DNA of 64,000 bases from Gammaproteobacteria bacterium. Lineage in GTDB: Bacteria; Pseudomonadota; Gammaproteobacteria; Ga0077554; Ga007554. Position 1 is the stretch's first letter. The number at the start of each line of letters is the position of its first letter. A model generated the notes under the pieces. It worked only from the letters and a program-made list of their open reading frames with translations, did not search any database and was not told the DNA's origin. The DNA is taken from contig JAMPIW010000001.1 of NCBI GenBank assembly GCA_040183005.1, forward strand, positions 124,001 to 188,000. The letters run 5' to 3'. Positions 9,674 through 22,152 of this stretch are shown here, one piece after another. The position numbers were made by a program, and so were the translations under genes.

Positions 9674-10069
9674 ATGAGCAAAACCCCCGCCAATTTGAAA
9701 TACACCAAGAGCCACGAATGGGTTGAGTTGCTGGCTGACGGAACGCTGCGTGTTGGCATCACCGACCACGCCCAGGATTTGCTGGGCGACATGGTATTTG
9801 TTGAGCTACCGGAGCCGGGCCGTAGCGTCACGGTAGGCCAGGAGTGCGCCGTGGTGGAATCGGTGAAGGCCGCCTCGGATGTCTATAGTCCCGTCACTGG
9901 TGAGGTCGTCGCCGTCAACGAGGCACTGGGGGGCAGCCCCGACCTGGTTAACAAAGACGCCTATGGTGAAGGTTGGATGATGCACATCAAGCCCGCCAGC
10001 CTCGCAGAGCTGGACAGCCTGCTGGATGCGAACGCCTATGCCGAGCTGGTTGCCGCCGAGGCGCATTGA
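9674..10069 (+). CDS. gcvH: Glycine cleavage system H protein
   Basis: Small lipoyl carrier protein of 131 residues that shuttles the aminomethyl group between the P, T and L proteins. The lipoylation motif VESVKAASD is present with the modified lysine at residue 65, and the N-terminus [11 protein letters not shown] is typical of the family. The SD AGGATC lies just upstream of ATG 9674. It is separated from gcvT by MITE-like element 2 and followed after 31 bases by the first glycine decarboxylase subunit. Confidence 0.96.
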
Positions 10070-10100
10070 TTTGGCTAATAAATATAAAAAGAGATAATCC

Positions 10101-11468
10101 ATGCCTTTTATTCCACACACAGAAGATGATATCCAACACATGCTCGCCGCCATCGGCGCGACGGGTATTGAGGATCTCTTTGACGAAATCCCCGAGGAGT
10201 TACGCGCCACCGCAGCGCTGAAGTCTATCCCTCCCGGCATGAGTGAGATGGATGTCACGCGCCTGATGATGCAGCGCGCCGAGCAGGATGGCCGCCCGCT
10301 GTGCTTTGCCGGTGCGGGCGCCTATGACCACCACATTCCTGCCGCCGTGTGGGAGATCGCCACGCGTGGGGAGTTTTACAGCGCATACACCCCCTATCAG
10401 GCCGAGGCCAGCCAGGGTACGTTGCAACTGCTTTACGAATACCAGACCATGATGGCCAGCCTCACCGGCATGGATGTCTCCAATGCCTCCCTATACGATG
10501 GCGCATCGGCGCTGGCCGAGGCGGTGTTGATGGCGGTGCGCGCCAACCGCAAGTCACAATCCAGACGCGTGCTGATGCCTAGCACGGTGCATCCGGCCTA
10601 TCGCAAGGTGGTGCGCGCCATAGTCACCATGCAGAATATCGAGTTGATCGAGCTACCTTTCTGCATGGAGTGCGGGCATACCGTGCCAGAATCGCTGGAA
10701 AAATACAGCGGCGACGACATCGCCGCACTGGTGATCCCGCAGCCCAATTTCTTCGGCGTGCTGGAAGAAGTGGACGCCCTCACCGACTGGGCGCACCGCC
10801 ACGGCGCGCTGGTGATCGGCGTGGTCAACCCCGTCTCGCTGGCGTTGCTCACCCCGCCGGGTGAATGGGGAGAAAACGGAGCCGATATCGTGTGTGGCGA
10901 GGGTCAACCCTTGGGTGCCCCACTGTCCTCCGGCGGACCGTACTTCGGCTTCATGTGCTGCAAAATGGAGCATGTACGCCAGATGCCGGGGCGCATCGTG
11001 GGACGCACCGTCGATCTCGACGGCAAACCAGGGTTTACACTCACGCTACAGGCACGCGAACAGCATATCCGCCGCTCAAAGGCCACTTCCAACATCTGCA
11101 CCAATCAGGGCCTGATAGTCACCGCCGCCACTATCCATATGGCGCTGCTCGGCCCCGATGGTCTGGAACGTGTGGCGGCCGCATGCCACGCCAACACCCT
11201 GGCCCTTGTCGAGGCGCTCACCGCTATCGACGGCGTTACCAAGCTATTCGACCGGCCCCTGTTCCACGAGGCCGTGTTGCAGCTACCGCGCCCGGTGGAC
11301 GAGGTGCTGGATGAGCTTGCGAAGCGTGGGCTGCTGGGTGGCTATAAGCTGGGCGGCGATTATCCCGAATTGAGCAACGCGCTGCTGGTGTGCGCTACCG
11401 AAACCAAAAATGCGGCTGATATTGAAATGTTTGCCAAGCATTTGCGCGATATACTAAAACCGCAGTAA
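10101..11468 (+). CDS. gcvPA: Glycine dehydrogenase (decarboxylating) subunit 1
   Basis: N-terminal-half subunit of the two-subunit P protein, 455 residues. Characteristic family segments are [20 protein letters not shown], the [15 protein letters not shown] loop, [20 protein letters not shown] and [20 protein letters not shown]. With subunit 2 it decarboxylates glycine on PLP and passes the aminomethyl group to GcvH. The initiating ATG follows AGAGAT. The second subunit is not adjacent: a thiol peroxidase gene lies between them. Confidence 0.95.
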
Positions 11469-11499
11469 TTCACCCGGGTTTAACTAAAGGAGATAGGTT

Positions 11500-12000
11500 A
11501 TGGCAACGATCACACTGAAGGGCAATCCCATACACACCAATGGCGATCTGCCGAAAACCGGCAGCAGAGCCCCGTACCTGAAATTGGTGGCAGAGGACTT
11601 GAGCGACAAGGAACTTGCCGATTTCAAAGGAAAGAAAAAGCTGCTCAACATTGTCCCCAGCCTTGACACCTCGGTGTGCGCCATCTCCACCAAGAAGTTC
11701 AACGATTTCGCCAAAACCCGCGATGACATGGTGATATTGATCATTTCCGCCGATCTGCCGTTCGCCATGAAGCGCTTTTGTGGTAACGAGGGGCTGAGCA
11801 ACGTCATTCCGCTGTCGATGATGCGCGGCCGTAATTTCGCCAAGGAATACGGTGTGCTGATTCAGGACGGCCCGCTTGCCGGCCTCACCGCCCGTGCCGT
11901 GGTAGTTCTGGACGAGAGTGATAGCGTGATCTACACCGAACTCGTGCCGGAAATCGGTCAGGAGCCGGATTATGAGAAGGCGCTGGCGGCACTGAAGTAA
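11500..12000 (+). CDS. tpx: Thiol peroxidase (atypical 2-Cys peroxiredoxin)
   Basis: Reduces hydrogen peroxide and alkyl hydroperoxides with thioredoxin. It has 166 residues, the normal size. The peroxidatic cysteine is in [11 protein letters not shown] and the resolving cysteine in [12 protein letters not shown] strong SD (AAAGGAG) precedes ATG 11500. It is embedded between the two glycine decarboxylase subunit genes, so it is probably co-transcribed with them. One possible benefit, by inference, is protection of lipoamide or iron-sulfur enzymes. Confidence 0.94.
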
Positions 12001-12005
12001 GTTGC

Positions 12006-12026
12006 AGGGTGCGCCGTGCGCACCCT
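12006..12026. repeat. Short palindrome AGGGTGCGC / GCGCACCCT
   Basis: Nine-base perfect arms with a three-base loop lie just after tpx. It is related in sequence to the longer palindrome at 33908-33968, so it is probably a copy of a dispersed palindromic repeat. It lacks a T-run, and gcvPB follows in the same direction. Confidence 0.7.
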
Positions 12027-12074
12027 ACATATGCGATCGAATTTAGTACGAAAAACTAGAAAGGCAGTCATGTC

Positions 12075-13526
12075 ATGTTGATCTTCGAACACTCCCACCC
12101 CGCTCGCCGTAATCCTTCGCAGGCTCCGCAAGACAAGGCAAATGTAATAGCCATCCCCGAAAAATTCCGGCGCAAAATACGTCCACTGCTGCCTGAGGTC
12201 TCCGAGCTTCAGGCGGTGCGGCATTACACGCGGCTGTCACAGAAGAACTTCTCCATCGACACGCATTTTTATCCGCTGGGCTCATGCACCATGAAGTACA
12301 ACCCGCGTGCCTGCAACAAGCTGGCGATGCTGCCGGGCTTTCTGGCGCGCCATCCTTATGCACCGGAATCCCTGAGCCAGGGATTCCTTGCCTGCATGTA
12401 CGAACTGCAGGAAATGCTCAAGGAAGTGACGGGGATGAAGGGCGTATCGCTCACGCCGATGGCGGGCGCGCAAGGCGAGTTCGCAGGCGTGGCGATGATC
12501 CGCGCCTATCACGACGCGCGCAATGATGTGCAGCGCACCGAAATTCTGGTACCCAGCGCGGCGCATGGCACCAATCCGGCCACGGCGGTGATGTGCGGCT
12601 ACACGGTGCGCGAGATCCCCACCGATGCACAGGGGGACGTGGATATCGGAGCGCTGAAGGCTGCGGTCGGTCCGCACACGGCGGGGATCATGCTCACCAA
12701 CCCCTCGACGCTGGGGGTGTTTGAGCGCCGCATCAAGGAGATTGCGCAGATTGTGCATGAGGCCGGTGGACTGCTGTATTACGACGGCGCCAACCTCAAT
12801 GCAATTCTCGGCAAGGTCAAGCCCGGCGACATGGGTTTCGATGTCATCCACATGAATCTGCACAAAACCTTTTCCACCCCGCATGGCGGCGGCGGCCCCG
12901 GTGCCGGGCCGGTGGGCGTAAGTGAAAGACTGTTGCCCTTCATGCCGGTACCCATTGTCGACTACGACGGCAAGGCCTACCGCCTCCTCACCGAATCGGC
13001 CCGGCCGCAAACCATTGGTCGTCTCTCGGCCTTTGCGGGCAATGCGGGCGTGTTGCTGCGCGCCTATATCTATGCGCGCCTGCTGGGATCGGAAGGCATG
13101 CATCGCGTCGCCGAATTCGCCACACTCAACGCCAATTACCTGATGGCGCGTCTGGCGCACAGCGGCTATGACCTGGCCTTTCCAGAGCGCCGCGCCACGC
13201 ATGAATTTATCGTCACCCTCAAGCGTCAGGCCAAGGAGCTGGGCATCACCGCCATGGATGTCGCCAAGCGCCTGCTCGACTTGGGCTATCACGCGCCCAC
13301 CACCTATTTCCCGCTGTTGGTGCCGGAGTGTCTACTGATCGAGCCGAGCGAAACCGAGGCCAAAGAAGAGCTGGACCGCTTCATCACCGCCATGCAACAG
13401 ATTCTCACTGAGGCTCAAACCACGCCCGAGATCGTCAAAGGCGCCCCCCACACCTTGCCCGTGCGGCGGTTGGATGATGTTAAGGCCGCCCGCGAACTGG
13501 ATCTTGCCTGGAAGCCGTCAAGGTGA
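12075..13526 (+). CDS. gcvPB: Glycine dehydrogenase (decarboxylating) subunit 2
   Basis: C-terminal-half, PLP-carrying subunit of the two-subunit P protein, 483 residues. The PLP lysine lies in [19 protein letters not shown] (Lys264). Other family blocks are [33 protein letters not shown] and [10 protein letters not shown]. It works with GcvPA, GcvH and GcvT; the L protein (dihydrolipoamide dehydrogenase) is not in the window. dgkA starts four bases after its stop codon. Confidence 0.95.
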
Positions 13527-13901: not shown

Positions 13902-14924
13902 CTATGACGATGGTAAAAAGTCGATGGGAAGCTTGGTCACGGTAGTGGCGACTTCTTTGGCTCCGAAGTCGAAAAGCAACACCCGCGCCACGATCTTTTG
14001 TATCAACTCGGGTGCCTCCATCGCGCTGGACACCACCTCGCAAGCGCTGACCTTGCCGGAGGGTTCTATGGTTAGTTTGAGCACCACCTTGCCCTGCAGG
14101 GATGGATCTTGCCGAAGCGCGCGGTTATAAAGCGAATACAGTGCTCCCTTGTTCTTATCGAACACCAACTGAATTTCATCGTCGGTGCGCGAACCGCCGG
14201 TTTTTTGCTTGGTCGATTTAGGCGCCTCGGTTTCACCAGGGTGAGCCGTGGGCTGCGGATTGTTGACACGCGTGGTCGTCCGTTCCGCCAGTTGCGTACC
14301 GCTGACGTTGCGGCTGGCGCTGGCGGTCTTTACCCCCTCGTTCCCGCGAGCCGTACCGGATGTAATCATCGAGCGCTGCACAAAGGGTTCGATCTTGCTG
14401 GGCTGGATAAGCTTCTCGTCCGTTTGCGCACTGGTTACGACGGGCTTGTCACGCAATGCCGCCAGATCGTTGCTTAACGCCAGCAGACCCGAGCTGGCCG
14501 CCTTCTTGCGCGCGGCCTCGATATTGACCTTGGGCGGTTCTACGGGCAGCGGCTCAGGCGTAGGCTCTTGCTTGGTCACTTGCACAGGCTCGATTTTCTT
14601 CTCGGGCTGGGGCTTGATTCTCAGCTCCGCCTTTGGCGCGGGCTGTGGCTTGGGAGCTTGCTCCGGCTTTGTGGCCAATGGTTTGACGGGCGAGGGTTTC
14701 GCAACCGGTGGGGGCAATTGCTTGCGTTCAAGCACCAGTCTGGCCAGCCGTGGCGGCACTTCCTCGGCTTGTTCCCGGGTGATTTTTGGAACCTGGATAA
14801 AAGTGATGATGCTCGAAATCACCAGAAAGCCTATCAGCACCGATGCCAGGATTACCCGGAAACGGTGTTCGTCCTGGGTGGTCATGGCCCATGGCAGGTC
14901 GGGGGAGTGATAATGAACCGCCAC
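13902..14924 (-). CDS. TonB-like / AgmX-PglI C-terminal domain protein of the motor operon
   Basis: A 340-residue single-pass protein. The membrane segment (about residues 24-43) is followed by a Pro/Lys/Glu-rich periplasmic spacer (about 70-135), a low-complexity region, and a C-terminal domain from about 245 (DDEIQLVFDKNKGALYSLYNRAL ... LTIEPSGKVSACEVVSS). This is the pattern of the AgmX/PglI C-terminal and TonB-C families. Such proteins transmit proton-motor force across the periplasm. The start chosen is GTG 14924, three bases after the previous stop; ATG 14885 is the alternative. It is the last gene of the motor operon and converges on dgkA. Confidence 0.8.
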   Translation of the reverse strand: MAVHYHSPDLPWAMTTQDEHRFRVILASVLIGFLVISSIITFIQVPKITREQAEEVPPRLARLVLERKQLPPPVAKPSPVKPLATKPEQAPKPQPAPKAELRIKPQPEKKIEPVQVTKQEPTPEPLPVEPPKVNIEAARKKAASSGLLALSNDLAALRDKPVVTSAQTDEKLIQPSKIEPFVQRSMITSGTARGNEGVKTASASRNVSGTQLAERTTTRVNNPQPTAHPGETEAPKSTKQKTGGSRTDDEIQLVFDKNKGALYSLYNRALRQDPSLQGKVVLKLTIEPSGKVSACEVVSSAMEAPELIQKIVARVLLFDFGAKEVATTVTKLPIDFLPSS

Positions 14925-14927
14925 GGC

Positions 14928-15419
14928 CTATTGCCCCGCCGCTCTTGGTTTTTGCAGCACAGCGAGAAAAATGTTGCTGTAATTGGCTTGTGTACACGTA
15001 ACCATGATTTTCTTCAAAAGCTTGTAGGGAATTTGCCGGTCACCCATGATGGTAATGTCGCTGTTGGCTTTGCTGCCTTGCCGCCCGGCTTGATGCTCAA
15101 GCTCGTTTTTCAATGGCGCGATGACATCTTCAGGGGCGTCCAGCACGTCTTTTACGGAGGCTATTTTGCGGCCCTGCATGATAATGTCGGTTCCACTCAC
15201 CATGATCAGTATGGTTTGCTTGGGTTGTTTTTCAACGATGGATTCGGGAAGTTTTACCACCTTGGTGTTGGGCAGAATTTCCACCTCGGAGGCACCTACC
15301 ACAAGAAAAAACACCAGGATGGTGAAGATATCCACCAGGGCAATCAGGTTGAGTTTGCCACCCCGCGTTGTTCGAGCGTGGTGCCGCTCCATGCGTCTGG
15401 CGCGCCGTGACATTTTCAT
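14928..15419 (-). CDS. ExbD/TolR family biopolymer transport protein (with catalytic Asp)
   Basis: A 163-residue protein with a basic N-terminus, one membrane helix (about 24-42, LIALVDIFTILVFFLVVG) and a periplasmic domain. The helix carries the conserved proton-accepting aspartate (Asp30) of ExbD/TolR/AglR-type stators. It lies between a second ExbD-like gene and the TonB-like gene, so it is a stator subunit of the same motor. Confidence 0.88.
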   Translation of the reverse strand: MKMSRRARRMERHHARTTRGGKLNLIALVDIFTILVFFLVVGASEVEILPNTKVVKLPESIVEKQPKQTILIMVSGTDIIMQGRKIASVKDVLDAPEDVIAPLKNELEHQAGRQGSKANSDITIMGDRQIPYKLLKKIMVTCTQANYSNIFLAVLQKPRAAGQ

Positions 15420-15440
15420 ATCGACTATCCGTATCCCTTG

Positions 15441-15944
15441 TTATTTTATTTTCTTGCCGGCCGGGGCGTCGCCAATGGATATATCAGGGAAAAGCTCGGC
15501 GGATCCCATCGCCCCGCTTCTTTCCTCGCGCAACGCATCCATCACCTGCACCAGGAGGTCATAAGGAGTGTCATCTTCCAGCAGGATCGACGCATCCCGT
15601 TTTTCCGGGAAGCGAGCTTTTAATTGATGAAGATTCTGCGCCAGGGATTTGATGTCATAACTGCCGGATGTATTATTTATCCGCTCAAAAAAGCTGCCGT
15701 TTCTGTCATTTATTTCAATAGCATCCTTGCGCAGAATCACCTCCAGCAGAAATTCCTTTTTCGGTTGTGGGGCGCTACTGGATGATGCCTGAGCGGCCGG
15801 GGGCATATTCAGCTCAAGCACCGTGATGCGCGAAAATACCGCCGAGGTCAACAGGAAGCACACCAGAATCACCATCATGTTGATCATGGCGGTGAGGTCC
15901 AGCTCGTCACCTTCGTTCCGCGCGAGTAGGGTGCGGCGTTTCAT
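15441..15944 (-). CDS. ExbD/TolR family protein lacking the catalytic Asp
   Basis: A 167-residue ExbD-like protein. Its N-terminus RNEGDELDLTAMINMMVILVCFLLTSAVF aligns with the membrane helix of the neighbouring ExbD, but asparagine (Asn22) stands where the proton-binding aspartate should be. Its ATG overlaps the stop codon of the ExbB-like gene by one base (TGATG), so the two are translationally coupled. The two ExbD proteins probably form an asymmetric pair inside one ExbB/TolQ pore. Confidence 0.85.
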   Translation of the reverse strand: MKRRTLLARNEGDELDLTAMINMMVILVCFLLTSAVFSRITVLELNMPPAAQASSSSAPQPKKEFLLEVILRKDAIEINDRNGSFFERINNTSGSYDIKSLAQNLHQLKARFPEKRDASILLEDDTPYDLLVQVMDALREERSGAMGSAELFPDISIGDAPAGKKIK

Positions 15945-16594
15945 TAGGGTGAGCCTTGCTTGTCGGAGTGTTCCTTGATGATGTTCAATACTTTTACGGA
16001 GGCCATCTCCAGGCTGTCCACCAGCTCAACGGTTTTGGACTGAAGCACGCTATAGATCAGCAGCAGCGGTATCGCCACCATCAATCCGAATGCCGTTGAG
16101 TTCATACCCACGGAAATACTGGCGGAAAGCAGCGCAGCTTTCTCGGAGGGGTTGGCGCTGGAGACGGCGGTAAACGCATCAATCAGGCCGATAACCGTGC
16201 CGAGCAACCCCAACAGTGTGGAAACATTGGCGAAGGTGGTGAGGTAGTGTGTGCGTTTTTCAAGGCGCGGGACGGTTTCCAGGAGTCCTTCCTCCATGGC
16301 GGTTTCAACATCGTCATGCCGTCGGCTTGTAACAATCCGGGACAACCCATAAGACAAAATGTTGCTGATGGCGGCATTGGACTGCGACATCATGTCTTGT
16401 GCGGCTTTGTACTCGCCACGCTTGAGCACCGGCAGCAGCTTGTCCCACATTTCCCGGTTCTTGTTGCGGGCGGCTGTCAGGAAGACATAGCGCTCGATGG
16501 CGATGGCGAGTCCCAGGGCGAAGATCCCGAGGATGAGGTACATAATAAAACCGCCGTCTTGAAAGAAGCGGATTGAGGAACTAAAAAAATCCAT
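15944..16594 (-). CDS. MotA/TolQ/ExbB proton channel family protein
   Basis: A 216-residue inner-membrane protein with three membrane segments: about 15-38, then two after residue 115. The family signature STLLGLLGTVIGLIDAF and the last segment with STAFGLMVAIPLLLIYS are present. The pentameric pore formed by such proteins surrounds an ExbD/TolR dimer and drives movement with the proton motive force. The two ExbD-like genes and the TonB-like gene follow directly, so it is the motor core of this operon. Confidence 0.9.
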   Translation of the reverse strand: MDFFSSSIRFFQDGGFIMYLILGIFALGLAIAIERYVFLTAARNKNREMWDKLLPVLKRGEYKAAQDMMSQSNAAISNILSYGLSRIVTSRRHDDVETAMEEGLLETVPRLEKRTHYLTTFANVSTLLGLLGTVIGLIDAFTAVSSANPSEKAALLSASISVGMNSTAFGLMVAIPLLLIYSVLQSKTVELVDSLEMASVKVLNIIKEHSDKQGSP

Positions 16595-16680
16595 GCTGAT
16601 CTCCTATGCTGCGTCATGCCCTGCCTTGTATTCGGCATTTCAGACAAAAATCTTGATGGTTAATGAGAAGAAATGCTGCT

Positions 16681-16950
16681 CTATCTGGAATTAAAAATTG
16701 CGTGGTATTGCATCTGGCGTAACAGGGTGTCCCTGTCCAGCGGCGCAAGGGCGGCGTTGGCGAACTCACCCATTGACCGGGCTGGCAGTGGGGCAGTTTC
16801 CGGTTTCTTCCACGGAACGATGTAGAGCGTTTTTGGCATGTCAGAATCACCTATGATTTTCGTGCCAGATGATTCAATAGTATCTTCTGCCTCCGAAACG
16901 CCAGTGAATAAACATAAAACGCCCATGATCAAAAGCGCTGATGGTTTCAT
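16681..16950 (-). CDS. Small secreted protein of the motor operon
   Basis: An 89-residue protein with a signal peptide (about 1-21, ending GVSEA). No family is recognised. The mature part contains TLYIVPWKKPETAPLPAR and ends FNSR. Its ATG overlaps the stop of the large TPR gene by four bases (ATGA), which strongly supports translation and coupling. It lies between the TPR lipoprotein and the proton-channel genes, so it is probably a periplasmic accessory part of the same complex. Confidence 0.75.
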   Translation of the reverse strand: MKPSALLIMGVLCLFTGVSEAEDTIESSGTKIIGDSDMPKTLYIVPWKKPETAPLPARSMGEFANAALAPLDRDTLLRQMQYHAIFNSR

Positions 16951-19900
16951 TTATCCGTCACCCCCGCGGTTTTCTCTGCACCATTATGGCGTTTTTCGAG
17001 ATCTGCGATCCACATTCCCACTTGCTTGTCAGCGGTGGGCAACAGGCCTTGATATAGCCGGTACTGCTCCAATGCCTTGCCGGTGTCGCGCAGATAAAGA
17101 TCGTAAAGAATGCCAAGGTTGAGGTGGATTGATGAATGATTCGGGTCGATAACCAGGGCTTTTTCGTAGGCGTTGCGTGCGTCATCGAAGCGTCCGTTGT
17201 CGCGATAATGAATCCCGAGGTGGTTGTATGCCTCAACGTTCGGCGGGACTTGTGCGGTGGCGTTTATCAATATCTTTTCGTCTTCATCCTTGCCGTCGTT
17301 TTTCAACGTAATGCCGGTCAAGGGTTCGCTTTTCTCGTGCTTTGCATATTTGACCGGCAATAGTTTACCCAGTTCGGAAAAGCTTTTCCTGACGGATTCG
17401 TCATAGATGCCGGCGGACACGCGCCGGATATTCGATTCATATATCTGGATTGCCTTCTCTTCAAACGGAAAGGCTTGCTCTTCCAGGAGTACATCATATT
17501 GTTCCCGCTCCTCGGGGGTGAGTCCTTCGGGGCGTTGGGATTCAAGCAGATCACGGCTGAGGTCGCTGTATATCTTTGCCATCTGGTACGTCGCGGCAGT
17601 CGTTACATCCGCCACGCCAAACTCCGCAGCAGTGCCATAGGCCCGCAAGGCCGCTTCCATTTTTTCCTTTTTGATTTTCAGGTTCTGTTGCAGCGGTTCA
17701 ACCAGTCGCGCCTGGGTGAATGCCTGATATCCGAGATCGGCCAAGGTGATTGCAGCATGGGCAGCAGTTTGGCGGGTGCGCGGCGTGCGCTCCGCGCCAC
17801 CTTCCCGGTCTGCCTTGATGATGTCCTTCAGCCAATAATTTTGCATGCTCGCGTCATTGCCTTGCTTATAGGCTTCCGCGAGGCGGTTGCGCGCCTCGAT
17901 GGCCTGCTCCAGCGGACTGGGGAACTGCTCGACGTACAGCCCATAGACCTTGGCGGCGTTCTTGGTGTCTTTGGCTTTTTCATAAAGCTCCGCAGCTTGC
18001 CACGTGGCGTCTTGGCGAACCGAGGCATCCTTGTTGCTGGCAATCGTTTTTTCAAGTTCGGCGGCGGCCTTTGCGGGCTGATCCAGCTGAAGGTAGGCCG
18101 TTACCATTTGCCGTGATACATCGGTCTGGAAGGCGTTGTCAGGGTAGGTTTTCTGGAGTTGGCTAAAGATGCGCAGTGCGTTACCCCAGTCGTTCAGCGA
18201 CATATAGCCGACGGCAGCATCATATTCCGCCGAGAGGCGGATGGGTGATGCAGGCGCCGCCGCGCCGACCCGAAGGAAGTGCTGGATCGCCGCTGGCATA
18301 TCGCCTGCGGTACGGGATTGTTCACCTTGCCGATATATTGCCGATGCCAGATTCTCCATGATTTCCACCCTGCCTGGATCACCTGCGGGAAGGAGATTCA
18401 GTGCCTCGCGATAGCTTGCCTCCGCACGATCAAAATTATCCCGTTCAAATTCAGTGTGCGCGATGATGGTTGTCGCCAAGCTGCGTTGCTTGATGTCAGC
18501 GGGGGGCTCCATTTTCAGAATTCGCCGCGCGGCGAATTCAGCCTTGTCATACTGCTTTAGAGAGAACAGCTCTTCCATCGCGGAGACCAGAATGGCGGGC
18601 ACCCGTTTGTCCTTGGGATACTTTTCGGAGAACCGCATCGCGCTCACCACAGCATTACGCCGCCACAGATTTTTTTCATAGCCCGAGAGTTTTTCTCCAT
18701 GTTTCTGATAGGCGAGCAGGGCCGCATAGCCTGCTTCGGCACCATTTTGATTGGCGGGAATATCATAGGCGACGTTTTCATAACGTGTGACTGCATCGGC
18801 ATAACGCCCATTCTCGTACAAGCTTTCAGCGAGCAGGAAGGTGATGCCTGGGGCATCGTTATCCTCGGGGAAATTTTTCAGAAATTTCGTATACCAATCC
18901 ATGGCCTCCTTGTATGCCGCGCGCGCCTTGCTCTTTTGCGCTTCAGCATGATAATGGCGCGCCAAGTCCTCAAGGATGACCCTTAAGTAGGAGGTAATCT
19001 TGTCTTGGGCGATTTTGTCGCCGTATATCAGGTGTTCGGTATACGTTTTTGTGGAATTGCTGATGCGACGTTGATTGTAGTCATCATAGACGCGGACAAA
19101 TTCCCGTTTTTCAGGCAGGAGCAGGGATACGAACTCAGGCCTTTTGTAGGCATCGATGATTCGCTGCTGCATGAGCACGCTGTAGGGATGGCCCGGATGC
19201 GCCTTGATGAATGCCCTGTAGCTGTTTACGGCGTCGCTGACACGGTCTTTCTCAAGAGCAAGTTCACCGAGGGATTTATACAGAAGGTGTTCATACGGGC
19301 GATAACCTTTGGCGGAAAGATACGAGTCGATCGATTCCGCGCCATTAAGATGATAAAAGCTGAGGCTGGTAACGTGCAGTGTATCTTTTACAAATTCCTG
19401 TTCGCCGCGCGGCAAGACAAAGTCATCGGCTACGGCTTTGTTCACAGGAAACTTTTTGTCCAAAATCGCAAAGAAAGAACCAAGGGCGGGCAAATACTGC
19501 TCCTGCTTGTAAAGGCTCCAGCCGTGTTTATACAGCGCCATCTCGTAAAATTGGGACTTTTTCAGGGGAAACAGGGAGGCATAGGCCTTCTCGGCCTGAG
19601 CATAATCCTTTAACGTAAACAGAATTTCCCCGCGCCGGAACTGGACCTCATCCATATAGCCTATCTTTGGATAGGCATTCGCCAAGCGAGTCAGCGTTTG
19701 CAACGTGTTTTGATAATCACCGCTTTGCTCATATGCTTTTGCCAGTTGATACAGTGTGTTTTCAGCGTCGGATTTTGGGGCTTGTTCCTGTAACAGCTCC
19801 TGATACAGATTGATCGCATTGCGGTTATCCGCAGGGGGTGGCGGTGCGCTGGTTTGGGCGTCTTGTTGGGATTTCTTGATCTTGCCCAGGAAAATGGACT

Positions 19901-20150
19901 CCGCATTATCCACCTCTAAATCGGCGATCTTGCGTTTTGCCTCGCGCTGGACTGATTTATCATTTGCCGTGCCCGCGATGGATTGGTACTGTTCGATGGC
20001 CTTGCTGCGGCTGTCCGGGATGGTGGTATCCTTTTCGACGGAAATGTTACGACGCTCCAGACTTTTGAGGGTTGGGCTATCGTCTTTTACCTGTGCGCAG
20101 CCAGCAAAGACGAGCAAGAGTAGTGGGGTCAGGCGACTGTAGTGTTTCAA
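16947..20150 (-). CDS. Large TPR-repeat lipoprotein of the motor operon
   Basis: A 1067-residue protein. TTG 20150 is preferred: it lies one base after the upstream stop, has GGGGAG before it, and gives MKHYSRLTPLLLLVFAGC, a lipoprotein signal with lipobox VFAGC. The remainder is mostly tetratricopeptide-like helical repeats (for example ENTLYQLAKAYEQSGDYQNTL near 140). A canonical TPR pair lies near the C-terminus (YNHLGIHYRDNGRFDDARNAY). Length, TPR content and motor neighbours resemble the TPR lipoproteins of the myxobacterial Agl/Glt gliding machine. It probably sits at the outer membrane as a scaffold; the function is inferred. Confidence 0.82.
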   Translation of the reverse strand: MKHYSRLTPLLLLVFAGCAQVKDDSPTLKSLERRNISVEKDTTIPDSRSKAIEQYQSIAGTANDKSVQREAKRKIADLEVDNAESIFLGKIKKSQQDAQTSAPPPPADNRNAINLYQELLQEQAPKSDAENTLYQLAKAYEQSGDYQNTLQTLTRLANAYPKIGYMDEVQFRRGEILFTLKDYAQAEKAYASLFPLKKSQFYEMALYKHGWSLYKQEQYLPALGSFFAILDKKFPVNKAVADDFVLPRGEQEFVKDTLHVTSLSFYHLNGAESIDSYLSAKGYRPYEHLLYKSLGELALEKDRVSDAVNSYRAFIKAHPGHPYSVLMQQRIIDAYKRPEFVSLLLPEKREFVRVYDDYNQRRISNSTKTYTEHLIYGDKIAQDKITSYLRVILEDLARHYHAEAQKSKARAAYKEAMDWYTKFLKNFPEDNDAPGITFLLAESLYENGRYADAVTRYENVAYDIPANQNGAEAGYAALLAYQKHGEKLSGYEKNLWRRNAVVSAMRFSEKYPKDKRVPAILVSAMEELFSLKQYDKAEFAARRILKMEPPADIKQRSLATTIIAHTEFERDNFDRAEASYREALNLLPAGDPGRVEIMENLASAIYRQGEQSRTAGDMPAAIQHFLRVGAAAPASPIRLSAEYDAAVGYMSLNDWGNALRIFSQLQKTYPDNAFQTDVSRQMVTAYLQLDQPAKAAAELEKTIASNKDASVRQDATWQAAELYEKAKDTKNAAKVYGLYVEQFPSPLEQAIEARNRLAEAYKQGNDASMQNYWLKDIIKADREGGAERTPRTRQTAAHAAITLADLGYQAFTQARLVEPLQQNLKIKKEKMEAALRAYGTAAEFGVADVTTAATYQMAKIYSDLSRDLLESQRPEGLTPEEREQYDVLLEEQAFPFEEKAIQIYESNIRRVSAGIYDESVRKSFSELGKLLPVKYAKHEKSEPLTGITLKNDGKDEDEKILINATAQVPPNVEAYNHLGIHYRDNGRFDDARNAYEKALVIDPNHSSIHLNLGILYDLYLRDTGKALEQYRLYQGLLPTADKQVGMWIADLEKRHNGAEKTAGVTDK

Positions 20151-20151
20151 C

Positions 20152-21576
20152 TTACTCGTCTCCCCGTGCCGCAGCGTGATTATAAAGCTCCGCCATGCCA
20201 AGTTTCGCTTGCGTAAGATAGTTGTCCAACCGTTGCTCACGTAGCGATAGTTCGGAAATCATGGTTTTCTGTATATAGGCATCCAGCTTTTTCATCAGGC
20301 CTTGCGCTTCCACCAAGGCCTGATCGATGTGCGTGTTGGCTGCGGATGTGCGGCGTGCTCGCTGCTGCTCCAGAATATTCTGCAGGGCGAGAGATTTACG
20401 ATAAAGTAAAACAGCCTCCTGTATCTGCGAATTTTCCATTAGCCACGGAAAATAGTGATTCTCCGGTGCATCCGGCAGCTTTCTTAGCGTGTTTTGCCAT
20501 TGCGTATCATCACCCGCATCAAGGCGCAGAACATTATTCTCCAGTTTTCCTGCACGAATCGCGTCTATCGACTGTTTGACACGCAATGCTTCAGCAGCAT
20601 AGTGAGAAATGGCGTTCTGATAGTGTTTCTGCGCCTCTTTGTAAGATTCAAGCTTGAATAAAGTGTCAGGTACGGTCAGCAAAGCCTCTTGCGTTTCTAC
20701 ATCCCTTATCTCTCGCTGCGCCAACTCCATCCACGGTATTAGCGCGCGTTTATGCTGATTTTGCGCTGACTCCGCAAACCCTGATCCTAACAATGCCTTC
20801 GGGGAGAAATAGCTGTTCAACCTGATTTTCTGGAAATACACCTTGGCTAAAGCAGGTTCTTTTTTTTGAAGGTAATGGTACCCAAGGGCAAGATTGGCCT
20901 TGTCCTGTAACATCTTCAATTCGGCATCAGAAAAAATTTCTTTGCTGATGCCATCAAGCAATCCCGCACCTTGCAATGATATGCCATCCTTGAGCATATT
21001 CACGGCGAGATTATGGCGGCTGAAATAGCCTGGCTTGGTATCGCTGTCCAAGCGAGGCAGCCGTGTTCCTGCTTGCTGAAATTGTTTTTTTGCTATTAAG
21101 AGATTTATCAGGAGCAAATCCTGCTGGATGCGCAGTTTTCCCGGCAGATCTTCAATCGTTGAAAGAAGTTTCTCTGCCGCCGGGTATGAACCTTGGCCGT
21201 AAAGTATTTTTGCGGAATAAAGGCTGGCAATGTCGCCAATAGATGAGGAGGAGCTGTTACTTATAAGGCGTGAAAAAACCTTTTGCGCCTCGTTGGGCAT
21301 GTCACTGGCAAGGTAAAGCATGCCCAATAGAAGATCGCCCTCTTGTTCCTGGCTCACCAAGACGCGGGTTTCTTGCGCGACGGTTAGCCGTGTTATGGCA
21401 GAGAAGTTATCGCCCCGGTAGAAGTCGAATAACGCCGCTCCGAAATGCGGGTCTTTTACCTTCCATGATAGATCGCCGCGAAGGTCGTCCGCCGCATTAG
21501 CTGCCGGTAGCAACAGGCCTGCGATAAGGAAGATGATCCAGCGTGCTAGAAAATACTTTATGGCTGAGCATCCCAT
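20152..21576 (-). CDS. Periplasmic TPR-like protein of the motor operon
   Basis: A 474-residue protein with a signal peptide (about 1-28, LLPAANA-A). It is rich in helical hairpin repeats of TPR/Sel1 character (SLYSAKILYGQGSYPAAEKLL, YHYLQKKEPALAKVYFQKI, FKLESYKEAQKHYQNAISHY). A coiled-coil-prone C-terminal third covers about 390-470. It lies 12 bases after the previous gene and its stop is one base before the start of the large TPR lipoprotein, so they are translated together. It is probably a partner scaffold; no enzyme motif is seen. Confidence 0.78.
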   Translation of the reverse strand: MGCSAIKYFLARWIIFLIAGLLLPAANAADDLRGDLSWKVKDPHFGAALFDFYRGDNFSAITRLTVAQETRVLVSQEQEGDLLLGMLYLASDMPNEAQKVFSRLISNSSSSSIGDIASLYSAKILYGQGSYPAAEKLLSTIEDLPGKLRIQQDLLLINLLIAKKQFQQAGTRLPRLDSDTKPGYFSRHNLAVNMLKDGISLQGAGLLDGISKEIFSDAELKMLQDKANLALGYHYLQKKEPALAKVYFQKIRLNSYFSPKALLGSGFAESAQNQHKRALIPWMELAQREIRDVETQEALLTVPDTLFKLESYKEAQKHYQNAISHYAAEALRVKQSIDAIRAGKLENNVLRLDAGDDTQWQNTLRKLPDAPENHYFPWLMENSQIQEAVLLYRKSLALQNILEQQRARRTSAANTHIDQALVEAQGLMKKLDAYIQKTMISELSLREQRLDNYLTQAKLGMAELYNHAAARGDE

Positions 21577-21588
21577 TGAATTTTACGC

Positions 21589-22152
21589 CTACTGCGCCTC
21601 CCTCACGGTCATTGCTGGCGTGTTGTCTTGGAGAAGATCACTAATGCTCAGCGCAATAAACTTTGGTTTTTGTCCTTTCTTGAAATTAAGGGATGCGCTG
21701 CTGCGGTAGAGTGGGTTGGCCGGAGTTTTTCCCTTGAAAATGGCGGATAGAAACTGTTCACCATCATTCAGGCTGCCGATATAGAGCCGATGTATGCCGC
21801 CAAGTTGCAGCGCCGCCGTCTCTTCAGGTGTGTACGTATGAGTTGTCACAATTTTGCCATTCACACTTAATTCAACAGAGTCCAGATCAAAGTGCAGCAT
21901 CTGACCCATACTCAGAAAGACGGCGATCCGAGACCTTTCGGGGAACTGTGCCTCTTCCTCAAGAATCGTGAGGTCGCGGTTTATGTCCGCTGCTGTTTTT
22001 TGGAGGGCCTGCACCTGGTTGTCCAGGGCAAGAAGCTCGCTCCGCAAGATTTTTGCCGTAGTGCCAGAGGGAGTTTCCTGGGCATAAGCAACCCCCGCCA
22101 CCATGAGTGGACATAAAAACAAGAGCGTGATTATTCCGGCAATTCTTGTCAT
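21589..22152 (-). CDS. Periplasmic coiled-coil protein, first gene of the motor operon
   Basis: A 187-residue protein with a signal peptide (about 1-24, GVAYA-Q) and a coiled coil at about 35-70 (KILRSELLALDNQVQALQKTA). A beta-rich domain follows with SVELSVNGKIVTTHTYTPEE and GGIHRLYIGSLNDGEQFLSAIF. AAGGA precedes ATG 22152. I do not recognise the family. As the promoter-proximal gene of the eight-gene operon it is probably a structural part of the envelope complex. Confidence 0.75.
   Translation of the reverse strand: MTRIAGIITLLFLCPLMVAGVAYAQETPSGTTAKILRSELLALDNQVQALQKTAADINRDLTILEEEAQFPERSRIAVFLSMGQMLHFDLDSVELSVNGKIVTTHTYTPEETAALQLGGIHRLYIGSLNDGEQFLSAIFKGKTPANPLYRSSASLNFKKGQKPKFIALSISDLLQDNTPAMTVREAQ

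Follow-up and report, generated by a model that had tools for sequence, protein, structure and literature searches.

An eight-gene gammaproteobacterial operon very probably encodes a stand-alone Agl-Glt core complex

A run of eight minus-strand genes spanning positions 13902 to 22152 of the window, by which we mean the whole 64,000-nucleotide stretch of DNA that was analyzed, very probably encodes a stand-alone Agl-Glt “core complex.” Its product is most likely a machine that uses the PMF to move or assemble outer-membrane or surface cargo. Luciano et al. 2011 (PMC3169522) derived the core complex from the Agl-Glt system of Myxococcus as AglRQS together with GltC, D, E, and G (the Group B genes), and described these genes as lying together, with an additional gene, in a single region in Gammaproteobacteria, Betaproteobacteria, and Geobacter, their function being given as unknown. 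Wartel et al. 2013 described it as a stand-alone system in many Gammaproteobacteria, possibly a basal machinery for transport. The gene set of the operon matches that of Luciano et al., and the operon was therefore filed as a member of the Agl-Glt core complex, a family membership that is well supported. The resemblance to the Agl/Glt machine and the shared myxobacterial part types remarked on in a first-pass annotation proved to be real and match the published complex. The machine type is widespread and has been known since 2011, and the operon is a further copy of it. What is added here, at the level of sequence, are counts of gene order and markers, a GltD-GltE fusion, an Asn/Asp pair of ExbD-type subunits, and a barrel and redox neighborhood in many relatives.

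The same annotation had proposed an operon of eight genes, and the open reading frames, strand, and coordinates were all verified (Table 1). In the order of transcription, P8 and P7 are separated by 12 nt and P7 and P6 by 1 nt, P6 and P5 share a 4-nt ATGA overlap, 86 nt lie between P5 and P4, P4 and P3 overlap by 1 nt, and the P3-P2 and P2-P1 intervals are 21 nt and 3 nt, respectively. All junctions are thus overlapping or at most 21 nt long, except for the 86-nt gap upstream of P4, and the start/stop overlaps and one-base gaps noted earlier were recovered at P6/P5, P4/P3, and P7/P6. A scan for promoters and terminators returned sites no more numerous than in shuffled sequences. Elsewhere in the window, positions 9674 to 13526 appear to hold glycine-cleavage-type genes, with a GcvH-like gene at 9674, GcvP-like halves at 10101 and 12075, and a peroxiredoxin-like gene between the two halves.

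Table 1. Genes and features of the operon, listed in the order of transcription (window coordinates).
Feature	Coordinates	Strand	Description
P8, first gene	21589..22152	-	Conserved as first gene; secreted; N-terminal coiled coil and C-terminal beta-sandwich; family: none known
P7	20152..21576	-	GltC-position periplasmic TPR solenoid, 474 aa
P6	16947..20150	-	1067-aa TPR outer-membrane-type lipoprotein; GltD-like body and GltE-like TPR tail, fused
GltE-like tail of P6, residues 947-1063	16962..17312	-	In most relatives, a lipoprotein gene of its own (~200 aa)
P5	16681..16950	-	89-aa secreted protein; conserved motif PK-x-LYIVPWK; operon marker
P4	15944..16594	-	AglR-position ExbB/TolQ-type proton-channel subunit; two conserved TM threonines retained
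P3	15441..15944	-	ExbD-type subunit “a”; Asn22 replaces TM Asp
Codon of P3 Asn22	15879..15881	-	Asn in 99/113 homologues
P2	14928..15419	-	ExbD-type subunit “b”; proton-binding Asp30
Codon of P2 Asp30	15330..15332	-	Asp in 109/109 homologues
P1	13902..14924	-	GltG-like transducer with a TM helix, a linker rich in Pro and Lys, and a TonB-like AgmX/PglI domain at the C-terminus
AgmX/PglI C-terminal domain of P1, residues 247-336	13917..14186	-	NF033768 match

Pfam and NCBIfam models agree with the part types originally assigned, namely one ExbB, two ExbD, a TonB/AgmX-like protein, and TPR proteins. Profile searches matched P4 to MotA_ExbB (E 6e-28) and both P2 and P3 to ExbD (E 2.7e-17 and 1.2e-11), so that one AglR-type and two ExbD-type subunits are adjacent in the operon. 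The channel threonines of P4, which lie in the motifs LGT and MNxTAFG, are conserved among its homologues. The PDB relatives of P4 are TolQ/ExbB only, and none were found for P2. P1, the sole GltG match in the host genome, carries an AgmX/PglI C-terminal domain that scores 60 bits against a cut-off of 40 for NF033768. None of the NCBIfam GltG, GltE, and GltJ equivalogs exceeded its cut-off (GltG 39.4 of 650 bits, GltE 29.1 of 225, GltJ 23.1 of 450); the GltG and GltE models gave partial matches far under their cut-offs. An interaction between AglR and GltG has been published for Myxococcus. The assignments of P7 as GltC and of P2 and P3 as AglQ and AglS rest on gene position, size, and the published description, and the names GltC and GltD for P7 and P6 rest on position and size, with TPR proteins in the expected places.

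The operon shares with the core complex of Luciano et al. its one ExbB, two ExbD, and GltG types and its probable GltC, GltD, and GltE types in a single cluster with an extra gene, but it differs in that the gltD- and gltE-type genes are fused, with loss of the lipoprotein N-terminus of GltE, and in that there are two small extra genes (P5 and P8). P6 starts at a TTG codon (20150), carries the lipobox LVFA-GC, and is matched by many TPR models of Pfam and NCBIfam, whereas the TPR match of P7 is weak. Residues 11 to 947 of P6 align with the ~935-aa GltD-like gene of relatives, and residues 947 to 1063 align with the TPR part of their ~200-aa GltE-like lipoprotein gene, an identity also supported by a weak match to the GltE model. 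By these alignments, P6 is a fusion of GltD-like and GltE-like proteins. Fused forms were found in the three sampled members of the host's family and additionally in genome G017. Separately, P7 and the GltD-like protein seem to be fused in one ~1415-aa frame in L096 (G022) and G170. Loci of PVC bacteria (PMC12204202) similarly combine a TPR gene with one TolQ-like and two dissimilar TolR-like genes, but the transducer there ends in a vWA fold rather than in an AgmX/PglI domain.

Structure prediction rendered P7 as an all-helical TPR solenoid (pLDDT 88.7), 474 aa long here versus ~630 aa in most relatives, and P8 as a coiled coil followed by a beta-sandwich (pLDDT 85). Both sequence and structure model bear out the earlier description of a coiled-coil protein and a secreted protein in the operon. 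A fold search with P8 gave no convincing solved relative, the listed matches having a TM of at most 0.36 when normalized by query length, and neither P5 nor P8 has a convincing family match in Pfam or NCBIfam. At five loci (L066, L072, L073, L074, and L098), P8-P7 pairs were seen for which motor genes were not found nearby; these are possibly second, motor-less copies.

A homologue of P7 occurs in 83 of 369 sampled Gammaproteobacteria genomes. Among 60 loci fetched around P7 homologues, the order P8-P7-GltD-GltE-P5-ExbB-ExbD-ExbD-GltG is intact in 45, with occasional fusions, and the remaining 15 comprise contig-end cuts and partial or second copies. Because the order is preserved in these 45 loci of other Gammaproteobacteria, the operon is not a chance assembly; the linkage of its genes is conserved in relatives. 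The P5 motif PK-x-LYIVPWK was also run as a DNA pattern against about 85,000 species genomes. Among the matches listed (named genomes), core genes neighbor the motif in 80 of 80 cases, and these include Alcanivorax, Microbulbifer, Rhizobacter, Piscinibacter, Gallionella, Woeseiaceae, Steroidobacteraceae, Desulfobacterales, and a Nitrospirae MAG, with no myxobacteria among the matches listed. Clustering of the core genes in one region is conserved across unrelated Proteobacteria.

The two ExbD-type subunits differ at an equivalent position of the TM helix. This position is occupied by Asp in all 109 homologues of P2, whereas the 113 homologues of P3 have Asn in 99 cases, Asp in 12, and Ser in 2. 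A quick tree places the two ExbDs in separate clades and gathers those Asp-bearing P3 sequences it included into one nested group (Steroidobacteraceae, Nevskiales, and G017). Given this grouping, the Asn of P3 looks old. The juxtaposition of this Asn with the invariant Asp of P2 suggests, as judged from the residues, an asymmetric motor. Here the operon departs from Myxococcus, where both AglQ and AglS are described with Asp and their heterodimer pairing is left open (PMC9389320).

The homology of the motor subunits is also what would be expected if the operon encoded a TonB- or Tol-like energizer for uptake or outer-membrane stability. Tol-Pal (TolQRA-TolB-Pal) likewise joins an ExbB/ExbD-type motor to a TM transducer, and P1 gives a weak match to TonB_C in profile searches. 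However, P4, P2, P3, and P1 all score far under the Tol and Ton equivalog cut-offs of NCBIfam (for Tol, P4 reaches 63.9 of 221 bits and P2 28.8 of 127), such that the TolQ, TolR, ExbB, and ExbD cut-offs are not approached. The host genome has nine MotA_ExbB loci, one of which lies in a separate ybgC-tolQ-tolR-tolA-tolB set that exceeds the main equivalog cut-offs (TolQ 306, TolR 154, TolA 168, and TolB 541 bits), and another locus holds an ExbB-ExbD-TonB-type set beside a receptor-like gene. The operon itself contains neither a receptor nor pal. Moreover, no conserved His was found in the TM helix of the P1 family, a residue reported to be essential for the binding of TolA and TonB to their motors (PMC12204202). 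We consider an energizer of this kind very improbable. Tol-Pal membership was rejected on the sub-cut-off scores and the genuine Tol set at another locus, and TonB-ExbBD uptake was rejected because the ExbB, ExbD, and TonB cut-offs were not reached. The first-pass view that this is not ordinary TonB or Tol-Pal is therefore upheld by the scores and the separate Tol set, and no clear orthology to either system emerged.

The Agl-Glt gliding and Agl-Nfs spore-coat machines of Myxococcus xanthus have the same motor type and GltC/D/E/G-type parts, and a genuine motor for gliding across surfaces would account for the part types and core genes held in common. As far as tested, however, the host of the operon lacks MglA, GltJ, and OMP_myx_plus-type barrels. 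No Arf/MglA-type GTPase in the genome exceeds its cut-off (the best Arf match, 21.6 bits against 22.3, lies within an 863-aa frame), the GltJ and GltG equivalogs fall short of theirs, no OMP_myx_plus barrel over cut-off is present in the host genome, and the Group A gliding genes are undetectable as far as tested. P1 differs further from its M. xanthus counterpart in the absence of an FHA domain. In addition, Luciano et al. (PMC3169522) argued that the core alone is insufficient for motility and reported it in bacteria not known to glide. Thus, the Agl/Glt-like character of the motor stands, but gliding, which had been offered as one possible output, is not supported and is not likely in the host organism; we give little credence to a Myxococcus-like motor for surface movement.

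In many relatives, but not in the window, two outer-membrane barrels are encoded close to the core, as is a DUF3570/ApbE redox module. Many loci carry a co-oriented set upstream of the core that encodes an HZS_alpha-like propeller protein, a small lipoprotein, an SH3/beta-barrel protein, an OMP_myx_plus barrel (TIGR04565, two examples of which score 148-162 bits against a cut-off of 60), a ResA/TlpA-like thioredoxin, a DUF3570 protein, and, in some cases, ApbE. The module of HZS_alpha-like, SH3, OMP_myx_plus, thioredoxin, DUF3570, and ApbE genes was seen before the core at L048, L079, L081, L086, and L095, and another upstream type was seen at L061 and L070, where genes for a LamG/cytochrome-like protein, a Tat-type protein, and ApbE immediately precede the core.

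These neighbors raise a sharper version of the preferred explanation rather than its opposite, in which the core would cooperate with outer-membrane barrels and with a flavin/thiol redox module outside the cytosol to export, assemble, or position surface redox proteins, with a reduced form in the host. The marker P7 is present in 53 of the 55 genomes that have an OMP_myx_plus match over cut-off among the 369 sampled (Fisher p 8e-40, ignoring shared ancestry), with the barrel within 15 kb of the core in 39 of the 55, although barrels are absent from 30 of the 83 core genomes. P7 is likewise present in 69 of 94 DUF3570 genomes of the same sample, and the Fisher tests again ignore shared ancestry. 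The upstream genes are co-oriented in many loci and ApbE flavinylates DUF3570 (PMC8238504), but linkage is no proof of common function, and neither DUF3570 nor a barrel over cut-off was found in the host genome, for which reason we regard the host operon as a bare core. A role with surface redox proteins is possible but somewhat doubtful. Our literature search found no paper tying the core complex to DUF3570/ApbE, and “ExbD,” “TolQ,” and “gliding” are all absent from the main text of PMC8238504. In Myxococcus, GltC binds two paralogous outer-membrane barrels, GltB and GltA, whose genes immediately precede its own (PMC4488436), and the gammaproteobacterial barrel pair may therefore, by analogy, be their counterpart. 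We tentatively entertain the broader idea that the gammaproteobacterial core is a 5:2 motor with a natural asymmetry, in which one axle subunit binds protons and the other is proton-dead, and that most lineages use it not for motility but together with a pair of outer-membrane barrels and a flavin/thiol redox module.

For the stand-alone core complex that we favor, we infer a 5:2 stoichiometry in which P4 would form an ExbB-type ring around an ExbD-type heterodimer of P2 and P3. The conserved proton-path residues are present in P4 and P2, and the proton route would run via P2 Asp30 and the pair of threonines in the P4 channel, such that the dimer, asymmetric in sequence, is turned or bent. P1, by sequence a TM transducer with a TonB-like end, would act as the force carrier and pick up this work, with its AgmX/PglI domain reaching through the wall to contact a periplasmic and outer-membrane TPR scaffold made of the P6 fusion lipoprotein and the GltC-like P7, along with P8 and P5. 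These TPR partners are predicted to be exported, one of them with a lipid anchor signal. We infer the contacts and the direction of force from this arrangement, and the scaffold would move, load, or assemble an outer-membrane or surface cargo.

We found no report that demonstrates what a core complex does in any gammaproteobacterium. The myxobacterial gliding and spore-coat machines are supposed to descend from the core complex. The question of the ExbD heterodimer (PMC9389320) becomes testable because the proton-binding residue is mostly missing from one of the two subunits, and the question of the core's cargo becomes testable because many Gammaproteobacteria encode the core near two barrels and DUF3570/ApbE.
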